Positions 30,775 to 35,106 of a stretch of DNA of 52,084 nt are shown piece by piece. The DNA lies in contig SVRJ01000011.1 of NCBI GenBank assembly GCA_015064885.1, forward strand, positions 1 through 52,084, given 5' to 3'. The position numbers and the translations under genes are program-made. This DNA comes from Oscillospiraceae bacterium. Lineage in GTDB: Bacteria > Bacillota > Clostridia > Oscillospirales > CAG-272. The first letter of the stretch is position 1. Every line of letters begins with the position of its first letter. The notes beneath the pieces were generated by a model. The model was not told where the DNA came from. It did no database searches and saw nothing but the letters and a program-made list of their open reading frames with translations.

Positions 30775-31704
30775 ATGGAAAACAAGCACACGATTTCTTT
30801 GCGTAAGCTTATTTCCGAGTTCTCGTTTGAAGAAATATATATGCCCGAGGAAGAGATCCTCATATCAAACCCCGACGTAAGCCGTCCGGGTCTTGCTCTC
30901 AGCGGATATTTCGAGCTGTTTGACGAAACCAGAATAGAGGTTATAGGAAGAGTCGAACACGCATATCTTTCGGGTCTTTCGGGTGAGGTGAGAAAAAAGA
31001 TCGTCGACGCGCTGCTCTCACGAAAGCCCCCTGCCCTTCTCGTTTCGACCAACCTTGACATCTTCCCCGAGCTTCTCGACAGTGCAAGAGCGAACAACGT
31101 TCCTCTCCTTCGCACAAAAGAAAGGACCAGCTCTATACTTGCGGCCCTCATAGCCTCTCTGAACGTACACCTTGCTCCGCGTATAACCCGCCACGGTGTC
31201 CTCATAGAGGTATACGGTGAAGGTCTTCTCCTGCTCGGTGACAGCGGCGTCGGAAAAAGCGAAACTGCCATAGAGCTTATAAAGCGCGGTCACAGACTCA
31301 TTGCTGACGATGCGGTGGAGATACGCCGTGTCAGCGCAAAAACTCTTGTAGGCCAAGCCCCCGAAATAATCAGACACTACGTTGAGCTGCGCGGAATCGG
31401 AATCGTCGACATAAGACGTCTTTTCGGTATGGGCGCGATAAAAAACACTGAAAGAATAGACCTTGTCATAAAGCTCGAACCGTGGGTACAGGGAAAAATG
31501 TACGACAGACTCGGTCTTGACGAGGAAACGGTAGACATTCTCGGAATAAAGATACCCGCGATCACAATACCGGTAAGACCGGGACGAAATCTTGCTATTA
31601 TTCTCGAAATAGCGGCTATGAACTACCGTCAGAAGAAAATGGGATATAACACTGCCGAGGAATTCAACAAAAAGCTGATGGCACAGATGGGAATATCCGA
31701 ATAA
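30775..31704 (+). CDS. hprK: HPr kinase/phosphorylase
   Basis: A 309-residue bifunctional HPr kinase/phosphorylase that phosphorylates HPr (and Crh) on Ser46, the central step of carbon catabolite repression in Firmicutes. The N-terminal domain (1-130) is followed by the kinase core with His140-Gly, the P-loop GDSGVGKS (155-162) and the family signature ELRGIGIVDIRRLFG. The ribosome site AAGGAGG is strong. It heads a run of genes (fusion esterase, DUF6320, Nudix) with gaps of at most 19 bases. Confidence 0.97.
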   Translation: MENKHTISLRKLISEFSFEEIYMPEEEILISNPDVSRPGLALSGYFELFDETRIEVIGRVEHAYLSGLSGEVRKKIVDALLSRKPPALLVSTNLDIFPELLDSARANNVPLLRTKERTSSILAALIASLNVHLAPRITRHGVLIEVYGEGLLLLGDSGVGKSETAIELIKRGHRLIADDAVEIRRVSAKTLVGQAPEIIRHYVELRGIGIVDIRRLFGMGAIKNTERIDLVIKLEPWVQGKMYDRLGLDEETVDILGIKIPAITIPVRPGRNLAIILEIAAMNYRQKKMGYNTAEEFNKKLMAQMGISE

Positions 31705-31723: not shown

Positions 31724-33904
31724 ATGGCTTTATCAAGCAAGCTTCTAAAATCACAACTCAATCTGCTCAAGCCGATAGTGTCCACCTGCTCTATCGAGCT
31801 TGCACGTGCCGGTCAGAATAAGATAGGCGATCTTATGATGCACGGAAGCAGAAAAGACGTTGAAATAGAAAAGCGCTTTTTTTGCAACTTTGAAGCCGCA
31901 TGGATAACTCCGTACGGCGAACCGAGAGGAGGGGTCATACTCTATCTTCACGGTGGAGGATACGTCTGCGGCGGAATAGACTATGCAGTAGGCTTTGGCT
32001 CAGTGCTCGCAAAGAAGCTGTCCGTACCCGTATTTTGCCCGGCCTACAGGCTCGCTCCCGAAAACAGATTTCCCGCGGCACTTGACGACGCCTTTGAGGC
32101 ATATACTTATCTTATAGAAAGCGGCTACAGCGCAGACAAAATTGTTCTCTGCGGTGAGAGCGCGGGCGGAGGTCTTATATATTCTCTTTGCCTTAAGCTG
32201 AAGCAACTGAACATGCCCCTTCCCTGCGGCATAGTTGCAATATCACCGTGGACCGACCTTACGGCTTCGGGAAGCTCGTACGAAGAAAACAAGGACAAGG
32301 ATCCTTCTATGACAAAGGAGCGTCTTTCCTTCTTTGCCGACGCATATACAGACAGAGAAAACAGATCCGACCCGTTCGTCTCTCCCCTCTTCGGCGATCT
32401 CTCAAATCTTCCGCCTTCTATTATTTTTGCGGGCGGAGACGAAATAATGCTCGACGATGCTACCGCGATCTACAAGGCACTTACCGAGGCAGGATGCCGT
32501 GCATCCATCCATATAGCACCCGGACTCTGGCACGGTTATATGCTTTACAACATAAAGGAAGCCGCTTCCGACTTCAACCTTATAAACAGCTTTCTCAAAA
32601 GCGTTCTTCCGTTTGAAAGAAGGCTCCGCTGGATGCCTCTTGACAACTCTGCGAAGATATACCCCGCTTCAAGAAGCAGACACTGGAACAATATATTCAG
32701 ACTTTCGGCAAACCTTACCGAAAACGTTGACAAAAAGACACTGCAGACCGCTCTTGACGTGACCGTAAGAAGATTCCCATCGATCGCGGTAAGGCTGAGA
32801 CGGGGTGCCTTCTGGTACTATCTTGAGGAAATACCGACCGCTCCGAGAATATCCGACGAGGCGTCATATCCTCTGGTTAAGATGTCGGAAAAGCAGATAA
32901 AGTCCTGCGCCTTCAGAGTTATAGCGTATAAAAACCGCATAGCAGTCGAGTTTTTCCATGCGCTGACAGACGCCAACGGAGGAATGATATTCCTCAAAAC
33001 TCTTCTTGCGGAATATATAAAGCAGAAATACGGGGTGAACGCAAGCTGCGAATATGGGGTTCTCGACAGATACGAGGAACCGCGTCCCGAGGAGCTTGAG
33101 GACAGCTTTATGACCAGCGATGGTGACATAAGCAAGAGCCGTGCGGATACAAATGCATTCAAATTCAAGGGAACACCCGAGCCTGACGGATTTCTCAACC
33201 TTACTACCTTCATAATAAAAACAGAAGATATACTCGCGATATCACATCAAAAGAAGGTCACGCTTACCACCCTCCTTTCTGCCGCAATGATATACGCTCT
33301 GATAAAAATACAAGACGAGCAGTGCCCGCGCAGAAAACATCAAAAGCACGTAAAGGTGCTCATTCCGGTAAATCTGCGACCCATGTTCAAAAGCAAGACG
33401 CTGCGAAACTTCGTCCTTTATATAACTCCCGGTGTTGACCCCAAAATGGGAAAATGGGAGCTTGACGAAATATGCGAAACGGTGCATCATCTTATGAATC
33501 TTCAGACAACGAAGAAGGAGATGATGACGAGAATAACCGCAAACGTAAAGAGCGAGCGAGCATGGATACTCAAGATCATGCCTCTCTTTATAAAGAACTT
33601 TGCCATGAAGGCGGTATACAACGCCGTAGGCGAAAAGAAGAGCTGTCTCACGCTCTCAAATATAGGACGTATCACTCTCCCCGAGGAGATGCAGCCCTAC
33701 GTCACACGTATGGACTTTTCTATCGGAAGGCTCTCAAATCTTCCTCATACGTGCGGGGTACTCTCATACGGAGACAATCTCTATATAAATATGACACGCT
33801 GCGTCAAGGAATCAGACCTTGAACTGAAATTCTTCGAGGTTCTCAGATCGCTCGGTATCCCTGTAACGGTCGAGAGTAATATGCGTAATGACCGAAAGGA
33901 GTAA
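31724..33904 (+). CDS. Fusion of an HSL-family alpha/beta-hydrolase and a condensation/alcohol-acetyltransferase-like domain
   Basis: A 726-residue two-domain protein. Residues about 50-300 are an HSL-type esterase with oxyanion HGGG (76-79), nucleophile Ser146 in GESAG, and Asp239 and His270 completing the triad. From about residue 305 a second domain resembles the CoA-dependent acyltransferase / condensation superfamily (alcohol acetyltransferase-like); HALTD (412-416) matches its HxxxD catalytic motif, and FVLYITPGVDPKMGKW and CLTLSNIGRI fit family strands. The two activities, acyl transfer and ester cleavage, may act on the same ester or lipid. A DUF6320 membrane protein gene follows after 6 bases. 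No signal peptide, so it is cytoplasmic. Confidence 0.88.
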   Translation: MALSSKLLKSQLNLLKPIVSTCSIELARAGQNKIGDLMMHGSRKDVEIEKRFFCNFEAAWITPYGEPRGGVILYLHGGGYVCGGIDYAVGFGSVLAKKLSVPVFCPAYRLAPENRFPAALDDAFEAYTYLIESGYSADKIVLCGESAGGGLIYSLCLKLKQLNMPLPCGIVAISPWTDLTASGSSYEENKDKDPSMTKERLSFFADAYTDRENRSDPFVSPLFGDLSNLPPSIIFAGGDEIMLDDATAIYKALTEAGCRASIHIAPGLWHGYMLYNIKEAASDFNLINSFLKSVLPFERRLRWMPLDNSAKIYPASRSRHWNNIFRLSANLTENVDKKTLQTALDVTVRRFPSIAVRLRRGAFWYYLEEIPTAPRISDEASYPLVKMSEKQIKSCAFRVIAYKNRIAVEFFHALTDANGGMIFLKTLLAEYIKQKYGVNASCEYGVLDRYEEPRPEELEDSFMTSDGDISKSRADTNAFKFKGTPEPDGFLNLTTFIIKTEDILAISHQKKVTLTTLLSAAMIYALIKIQDEQCPRRKHQKHVKVLIPVNLRPMFKSKTLRNFVLYITPGVDPKMGKWELDEICETVHHLMNLQTTKKEMMTRITANVKSERAWILKIMPLFIKNFAMKAVYNAVGEKKSCLTLSNIGRITLPEEMQPYVTRMDFSIGRLSNLPHTCGVLSYGDNLYINMTRCVKESDLELKFFEVLRSLGIPVTVESNMRNDRKE

Positions 33905-33910
33905 TACAAA

Positions 33911-34606
33911 ATGTACTGTGCAAACTGCGGAGTAAAGCTCGCGGACAGCGAAAAGGTGTGCCCTCTTTGTAAGACCGTCGCTTATCATCCGGATATAAAA
34001 AGAGAAATATCCCCTCCCCCCTACCCTCAAAAAACCATTATCAACGAAACGGTAAATCCCTTTGGACTTCTTTTCGTTGTAACCTTCATTTTTCTTCAGC
34101 CCATAATCATAACTCTTCTCTGTGACTTTCAACTTAACGGAGGCATCACTTGGTCGGCGTATTCGGCGGGCGGAGTTCTGCTCGGATATATTATCTTTGT
34201 GCTTCCTAATTGGTTCAGAAAGCCAAACCCCGTAATTTTCGCGCCGATAGATTTCGTGGCCTCCGGACTTATGCTGCTTTACATCAACTGTGCGACCGGC
34301 TCCTCATGGTTTATGAGCTTTGCCTTCCCCCTTCTCGTTTACTCTTGTGTTCTCGTATGCACTGTGATCACCCTCTGCAAATACGTACGCAAGGGCTACC
34401 TCTATATTTTCGGAGGAAGCTTTATAGGACTTGCGGGCTTCTTTATCATGATAGAGATATTCGCGGCGCTTGCATTCGGTAATACGATAAGGATAGTCTG
34501 GTCGATATATCCGGCAATATCCTGCATCATTCTCGGAATAATGCTTATCATAATAGCTATCTGCAAGCCTCTCAAGGAATCGCTCAGAAAGAAGCTTTTC
34601 CTATAA
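33911..34606 (+). CDS. DUF6320-like zinc-ribbon membrane protein
   Basis: A 231-residue protein. An N-terminal zinc ribbon has C3-x2-C6 and C17-x2-C20 (MYCANCGVKL and VCPLCKTV). It is followed by about six membrane helices from residue 55 on. This matches DUF6320-type proteins, which in my recollection accompany esterase and alcohol acetyltransferase-like genes in clostridia. It follows the fusion gene by 6 bases behind GAAAGGAG, so the products probably work together at the membrane. Function unknown. Confidence 0.78.
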   Translation: MYCANCGVKLADSEKVCPLCKTVAYHPDIKREISPPPYPQKTIINETVNPFGLLFVVTFIFLQPIIITLLCDFQLNGGITWSAYSAGGVLLGYIIFVLPNWFRKPNPVIFAPIDFVASGLMLLYINCATGSSWFMSFAFPLLVYSCVLVCTVITLCKYVRKGYLYIFGGSFIGLAGFFIMIEIFAALAFGNTIRIVWSIYPAISCIILGIMLIIIAICKPLKESLRKKLFL

Positions 34607-34624: not shown

Positions 34625-35065
34625 ATGCGCGCACCCTTTCAGATACTTGCTATTCCCTACAGACGGAACAAGGACTGCATTCTCTTTTGCGCTTTTCGCA
34701 GATCCGATTCTGACCTGTGGCAATTCATAGCCGGCGGAGGCGAGGATAGCGAAACGCCGAGTGAGGCAGCAAAAAGAGAAATATACGAGGAGAGCGGTAT
34801 CGAGTGTAGCGATCTCATCAGCCTCACTTCTATGTGCTACCTTCCCGTGACCATATTTCCAATGCTCAAAAATTACAATTGGCAAAAGGACACATACGTT
34901 ATTCCCGAATACGCCTTCGGATTCGAATGTAACGAAGATATATCTCTCTCACGCGAGCACACCGAATGCGTGTGGATGACGTATGAAAAGGCAAAGGAAA
35001 TCCTCGCATATGATTCAAACAAAACTGCGATGTACGAGCTTTTTCGCAGGCTTACGGCAATATAA
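34625..35065 (+). CDS. Nudix hydrolase (dATP pyrophosphohydrolase-like)
   Basis: A 146-residue Nudix enzyme that would hydrolyse a nucleoside diphosphate linked to another moiety. The Nudix box GGGEDSETPSEAAKREIYEE continues into SGI, with the catalytic REIYEE glutamates intact. The N-terminus (FQILAIPYRR, then WQFIAGG) resembles dihydroneopterin-triphosphate/dATP pyrophosphatases. It lies 18 bases after DUF6320 behind AAAGGAG and ends at a strong terminator. The natural substrate is not determined by sequence. Confidence 0.9.
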   Translation: MRAPFQILAIPYRRNKDCILFCAFRRSDSDLWQFIAGGGEDSETPSEAAKREIYEESGIECSDLISLTSMCYLPVTIFPMLKNYNWQKDTYVIPEYAFGFECNEDISLSREHTECVWMTYEKAKEILAYDSNKTAMYELFRRLTAI

Positions 35066-35106
35066 AAAGCAACCGACTGTCATTCTTCAGACAGTCGGTT
35101 GCTTTT
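35065..35106. terminator. Strong bidirectional terminator
   Basis: A 17-bp perfect stem (AAAAGCAACCGACTGTC and its complement at 35090-35106) with loop ATTCTTCA, T-rich on both strands. It ends the hprK operon and the convergent DUF3048 gene. Confidence 0.92.

Follow-up and report, generated by a model that had tools for sequence, protein, structure and literature searches.

A fused esterase–acyltransferase gene and its zinc-ribbon DUF6320 membrane partner in an Oscillospiraceae genome, and the Bacillota gene cassette to which they belong

The stretch of DNA analyzed here (the window; 52,084 nt from contig SVRJ01000011.1 of an Oscillospiraceae bacterium) encodes a fused esterase–acyltransferase, followed after 6 nt by the gene for a DUF6320 membrane protein (Table 1). 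These lie closely spaced on one strand with the gene for a NUDIX hydrolase and with hprK, the product of which is a carbon-catabolite regulator kinase, and the four genes are probably co-transcribed; the terminator-like hairpin that closes the unit is a strong one. Neither hprK nor the NUDIX hydrolase gene recurs beside the other two in relatives. The fusion gene has no stop within its frame, and the maximum 19-residue hydropathy of its product is 1.5. The two halves, an esterase domain (HYD) and an acyltransferase domain (ACYL), are joined by a linker of 5–9 residues. An AlphaFold2 (AF2) model of the whole fusion, built from 44 sequences, has a mean pLDDT of 92.3 and a pTM of 0.72.

Table 1. 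Genes, domains, and other features at the fusion locus (window positions)
Feature	Coordinates	Strand	Basis and details
hprK (HPr kinase/phosphorylase)	30775..31704	+	TIGR00679 E 3.6e-108; 19 nt upstream of fusion gene
Fused esterase–acyltransferase gene	31724..33904	+	726 aa, no TM segment; fused in 12 genomes
HYD, HSL/family IV esterase domain, aa 1-296	31724..32611	+	S146, E240, H270, HGGG 76-79
ACYL, CoA-dependent-acyltransferase-fold domain, aa 300-726	32621..33901	+	H412xxxD416; profile-profile match, AF2 topology, invariant H and D
DUF6320 membrane protein	33911..34606	+	231 aa; PF19845 E 6.8e-5, Zn_Ribbon_1 E 0.0011
NUDIX hydrolase	34625..35065	+	PF00293 E 1e-13; 18 nt downstream of DUF6320 gene
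Intrinsic-terminator-like hairpin	35065..35106	+	17-pair stem, T-rich tail; ends unit

The esterase half carries the complete fold and motifs of the bacterial HSL/family IV esterases. Residues 72–273 match Abhydrolase_3 (PF07859; E 9.9e-52, 176.2 bits) in a Pfam search, and residues 1–296 align to solved HSL esterases with VIA-align Z scores of 41–44 (for 9izt, Z 43.9 and rmsd 1.9 over 293 residues), giving an alpha/beta-hydrolase fold with an N-terminal cap. The oxyanion motif HGGG (76–79), the GESAGG motif around S146, and H270 are all present. An initial reading of this DNA from its letters and open reading frames (the sequence-only reading) had named S146, D239, and H270 as the catalytic triad; the serine, the histidine, and the oxyanion motif are borne out, but the acid is E240. 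Among 54 HSL proteins aligned from the genomes surveyed, column 239 takes any of ten residues (D, N, C, H, A, R, E, Y, F, or G), which rules out D239, whereas 53 have E or D in column 240. E240 begins the sequence E-I-M in the position of the (E/D)xL motif, and published family IV esterases use a Glu as catalytic acid in this motif, examples being the triads S144/E238/H268 and S160/E253/H283 (PMC5789746, PMC10385968). Identity to Aes72 (9izt), EstD11 (7at0), and E40 (4xvc) is ~30–34%, and the Glu acid is common to both sides; the known HSL/family IV esterases are stand-alone enzymes, whereas HYD in the window is half of a fusion.

An acyltransferase-type fold for the second half is well supported by modelling and comparison. 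All 22 divergent ACYL proteins compared (21–49% identity to the window's domain) keep H412 and D416, and the G-x-G columns past D416 are nearly invariant among them. The alignment of these members matches that of nine NRPS condensation domains (hhalign Prob 96.6, E 5.6e-10, 272 columns), with HxxxD of ACYL aligned on the second His of the condensation-domain HHxxxDG. In the AF2 model, a strand (405–411) is followed by H412xxxD416 and a helix (417–436), an order that fits the acyltransferase fold. Finally, relatives fall at or near Pfam cut-offs that the window's domain does not reach: within residues 499–666 the latter matches AATase (PF07247; E 0.0036, 16.4 bits, gathering cut-off 22) and PapA_C (PF16911; E 0.003, 17.3 bits, gathering cut-off 30), relative L058 scores 27.0 bits against AATase, and relative L043 scores 29.9 bits against PapA_C. 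AATase (the Atf family) is the most frequent Pfam match among ACYL members (27 of 44 rows at E <= 0.01). By these scores, the window's domain appears to lie near the AATase family while not being assignable to it by the Pfam cut-off. A PDB sequence search with ACYL profiles gave no significant match; the five sub-threshold matches listed for the A4 profile include an NRPS, VibH, DGAT, and PapA5, all members of the CoA-dependent acyltransferase superfamily. A structure search with the whole fusion returned lists taken up by esterase matches for the first half. ACYL has in common with PapA5, WS/DGAT, and NRPS condensation domains an HxxxD before a long helix, but differs from them as a family of its own with LDNAAKIYP, FWYY, and TLRNF signatures; it has a single His, in contrast to the HHxxxDG of condensation domains, and no carrier protein is encoded close by. 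The sequence-only reading had described this half as condensation/alcohol acetyltransferase-like with an HxxxD motif, and had named the fold in advance as one point on which it could fail; the invariance of the motif, the condensation-domain match, and the AF2 order all agree with that description. Elsewhere in the window's own genome, an NRPS-like ORF of ~2459 aa encodes two condensation domains (G000:C75:1317-5735; L080, L085).

The membrane protein of the window scores 23.2 bits against PF19845, under the gathering cut-off of 29.9. Relatives at the equivalent position exceed this cut-off (L030, a gene of genome G071, scores 30.3 bits), and a profile of family alignment A2, which includes L030, detects the DUF6320 proteins of L043–L051 in the equivalent position. 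We count the window's protein as DUF6320 because it shares both homology and position with proteins above the cut-off. The HMM search suggested by the sequence-only reading yields a strong Abhydrolase_3 match, whereas AATase, PapA_C, and DUF6320 all remain below cut-off in the window itself, with relatives passing for AATase and DUF6320. None of the papers searched names DUF6320, and a search of phages found no relative of the window's protein.

Relatives were surveyed in 97 genomes including that of the window, 42 of which encode a relative of the fusion. Three arrangements occur: a fused HYD-ACYL followed by DUF6320; separate HYD, ACYL, and DUF6320 genes; and ACYL-DUF6320 with no linked esterase. 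The in-frame fusion is found in 12 of the 97 genomes (that of the window counted) and is real; the earlier expectation that these parts are usually separate genes beside DUF6320 is correct. In split relatives the HYD and ACYL genes often share a few to tens of bases, an overlap from which an annotation or assembly error might fashion an apparent fusion; but the frame runs on without a break in 12 independent genomes, and their aligned junctions are near-constant in length, which refutes such an artefact and leaves it practically no probability.

In 95 relatives there are 43 strong ACYL genes, and DUF6320 is the next gene downstream of 41 of them when divergent copies recognized on direct inspection are included; the two exceptions are G009, with an intervening ORF, and G046, with no adjacent copy. 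A second sample, drawn evenly from Bacillota, comprised 299 genomes; 14 of these hold the 15 confident DUF6320 genes, every one of which lies immediately downstream of ACYL when coordinates are compared, and 15 of 20 ACYL genes have DUF6320. HYD is fused to or directly upstream of ACYL in 30 of 55 ACYL loci; in the cassette order HYD-ACYL-DUF6320 its 5' place is conserved, and cassette esterases keep the triad. At 23 of the 55 loci there is no linked esterase, and ACYL-DUF6320 is mostly kept. From this near-constant pairing, set against an esterase that is fused, neighboring, or absent, ACYL and DUF6320 constitute a near-obligate core and the esterase is a frequent accessory. The trio proposed by the sequence-only reading is therefore co-conserved in its ACYL-DUF6320 part, with the esterase optional. 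It is well supported that the window's fusion belongs, in fused form, to a widespread, uncharacterized Bacillota cassette, HYD-ACYL-DUF6320.

HYD might act as an editing or detoxifying partner: ACYL would acylate its own membrane substrate (e.g., a glycolipid or cell-envelope component), and HYD would strip wrong or excess acyl groups or cleave unrelated short esters. Its absence at those 23 loci, as for an accessory, is in keeping with such a role, as are the broad-range carboxylesterases that are the nearest solved relatives of HYD; however, the 12 genomes with a fusion across so short a linker, and the tight coupling seen repeatedly, suggest that the stoichiometry of the two is matched, and we regard editing as a rather unlikely role, if one to be taken seriously.

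Genes beyond the cassette include no conserved neighbors among relatives and indicate no pathway, and operon context was accordingly dropped as a guide to substrate. Some loci do lie near carbohydrate genes: L052 near GH120, pectin acetylesterase, and alpha-fucosidase genes; L064 near a melibiase gene; L032 near a GH5-like gene; and L088 near genes for a sugar kinase and LacI. These could suggest that the cassette O-acylates and deacylates sugars or oligosaccharides imported by gut bacteria, but such neighbors are a minority and differ at every locus, and soluble sugars would not call for a membrane partner; this substrate class is improbable. Anaerotruncus colihominis VE303-02 carries the L088 cassette (NZ_CP094683.1 27208-31008; K5I23_RS17220-17230) in split form, on a plasmid of 52 kb. 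This cassette has the three parts in the window's order, with genes overlapping or almost touching, but its esterase and acyltransferase are separate proteins, and the esterase belongs to another HSL clade (GDSAG, AxYDPLRDE). A diacylglycerol kinase family gene lies 22 nt beyond this cassette, a hint of a link to lipids. At L041:3685-5632, ACYL has no DUF6320 and is followed after 2 nt by a gene for a YccF-family inner-membrane protein (PF03733 E 3e-25), which is perhaps a substitute membrane partner.

In the ACYL tree, one supported clade of 17 takes in 11 of the 12 fused proteins together with six esterase-less members; the remaining fused protein (L012) falls outside it. A clade of fused rows alone is rejected (p 7e-8), the six esterase-less rows lying inside, while the AU test does not reject a single origin of the fusion with later losses (p 0.11). 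On this basis, the fusion appears to have arisen once or twice within the window's order, as a lineage-specific variant rather than a general feature of the cassette, and the esterase-less members of the fused clade probably lost the HYD half later. The HYD tree resolves the cassette esterases as two deep clades. This suggests two independent recruitments of HSL esterases, which we do not claim since a single clade is not rejected (AU p 0.35).

The DUF6320 protein consists of a zinc ribbon (aa 3–20) and six TM helices (aa 50–217) in an AF2 model with a pLDDT of 90.4, and the four zinc-ribbon Cys are invariant in all 33 DUF6320 relatives compared. Across these relatives, Lys and Arg average 1.8, 2.8, and 4.6 per sequence in loop 2, loop 4, and the C-terminal tail, respectively, vs. 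0.1–0.8 in loops 1, 3, and 5; from this positive-inside pattern, both termini and the zinc ribbon are predicted to be cytoplasmic. Fold searches returned nothing above noise for DUF6320 (best Foldseek E 0.75, best VIA-align Z 7.5). DUF6320 could be a transporter or flippase of the acylated product rather than a dock, acylation marking the compound for export: the six TM helices, the conserved Trp, the membrane Glu E182 (in 30 of 33 relatives), the near-obligate pairing with ACYL, and the secretion of acetylated sterols in yeast (PMC4076087) would all suit such a function. Yet DUF6320 has no transporter fold match, the best VIA-align match, a 108-residue alignment with a ZnT zinc transporter, being at a Z level common among unrelated helical bundles, and we consider transport unlikely. 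At L042:3891-6171 and L123:2035-4189, DUF6320 lacks the zinc ribbon and the adjoining ACYL has an extra N-terminal extension of ~80–150 aa, possibly a swap of docking modules within a single lineage. At L044:4476-5137, DUF6320 is split into two overlapping ORFs near intact esterase and acyltransferase genes, likely a pseudogene or a sequence error.

In yeast, Atf2 acetylates sterols, and acetylated sterols are secreted unless Say1 deacetylates them (PMC4076087). The cassette has in common with this pair its two enzyme superfamilies (AATase, PF07247, for Atf2; PF10340 for Say1) and a putative add-and-remove cycle at the membrane. The window's HYD scores 63.2 bits against Say1_Mug180 (PF10340), above the gathering cut-off of 21, although PF07859 scores higher. 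At the E limits used, PF10340 matches are found for all 20 esterases in the clade set of the window's HYD and for 15 of 17 in the second cassette clade (35/37 in total), but for 0/14 solo HSL esterases from the same related genomes, a contrast between two cassette clades and three solo clades that is a lead rather than proof. The yeast enzymes have TM or amphipathic helices of their own, whereas membrane attachment in the bacterial cassette is proposed to be via the separate zinc-ribbon protein; unlike Atf2 and Say1, both enzymes in the window are bacterial and form one polypeptide, and ACYL falls below the AATase cut-off. Literature searches on gut steroid acetylation and on COG4908 found nothing specific and nothing relevant, respectively.

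Because the enzyme families are those of Atf2 and Say1, and given the PF10340 signal, we tentatively propose a membrane-docked cycle of acylation and deacylation on a hydrophobic alcohol, with DUF6320 as the dock; taken as a whole, this proposal has somewhat less than an even chance of being correct. It builds on the fold, motifs, topology pattern, gene order, and co-conservation observed here; we infer the acyl-CoA donor, the hydrophobic acceptor, the making and cleaving of the same ester, and the contact with DUF6320. In ACYL, H412 would serve as general base and D416 would be structural, and a short acyl group would pass from acyl-CoA to the hydroxyl of an acceptor that partitions into the membrane, which could be a terpenoid or steroid alcohol, or a lipid. 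The S146-E240-H270 triad of HYD would hydrolyze the same ester class, and the fusion, holding the transferase and hydrolase activities at 1:1, would set the acylation state of the substrate in the manner of Atf2 and Say1. By its cytoplasmic zinc ribbon, DUF6320 would dock the enzyme, itself soluble, on the inner face of the membrane and give it access to substrate; the loss of the ribbon and extension of ACYL in the L042/L123 lineage are consistent with docking, as a module swap would predict. Since an esterase is not linked at 23 of the 55 ACYL loci, the deacylation half-cycle would not be obligatory. The suggestion of the sequence-only reading, an ester- or lipid-modifying system that makes and trims an acyl ester, is kept in conditional form. 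It is quite unlikely that the cassette is specifically a bacterial counterpart of yeast sterol acetylation and deacetylation, in which one bifunctional protein and a zinc-ribbon tether would control how gut Clostridia acylate (and perhaps export or detoxify) alcohols of the steroid, bile-acid-like, or terpenoid type.

Of most use is the pairing of DUF6320 with the acyltransferase: for a family of unknown function, near-obligate association with ACYL provides a concrete, testable role, that of docking an O-acyltransferase or otherwise serving as its partner. With the fused form, a single protein that can be expressed would allow acyl transfer and hydrolysis of one and the same ester to be assayed side by side. 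Should the acceptor prove to be a steroid or terpenoid alcohol, the cassette would represent an unrecognized route by which gut bacteria modify such compounds. In three related MAGs, the gene for a second, unrelated zinc-ribbon protein lies ~4 kb upstream of the cassette (L036:521-1033, L037:522-1034, L038:462-1034).
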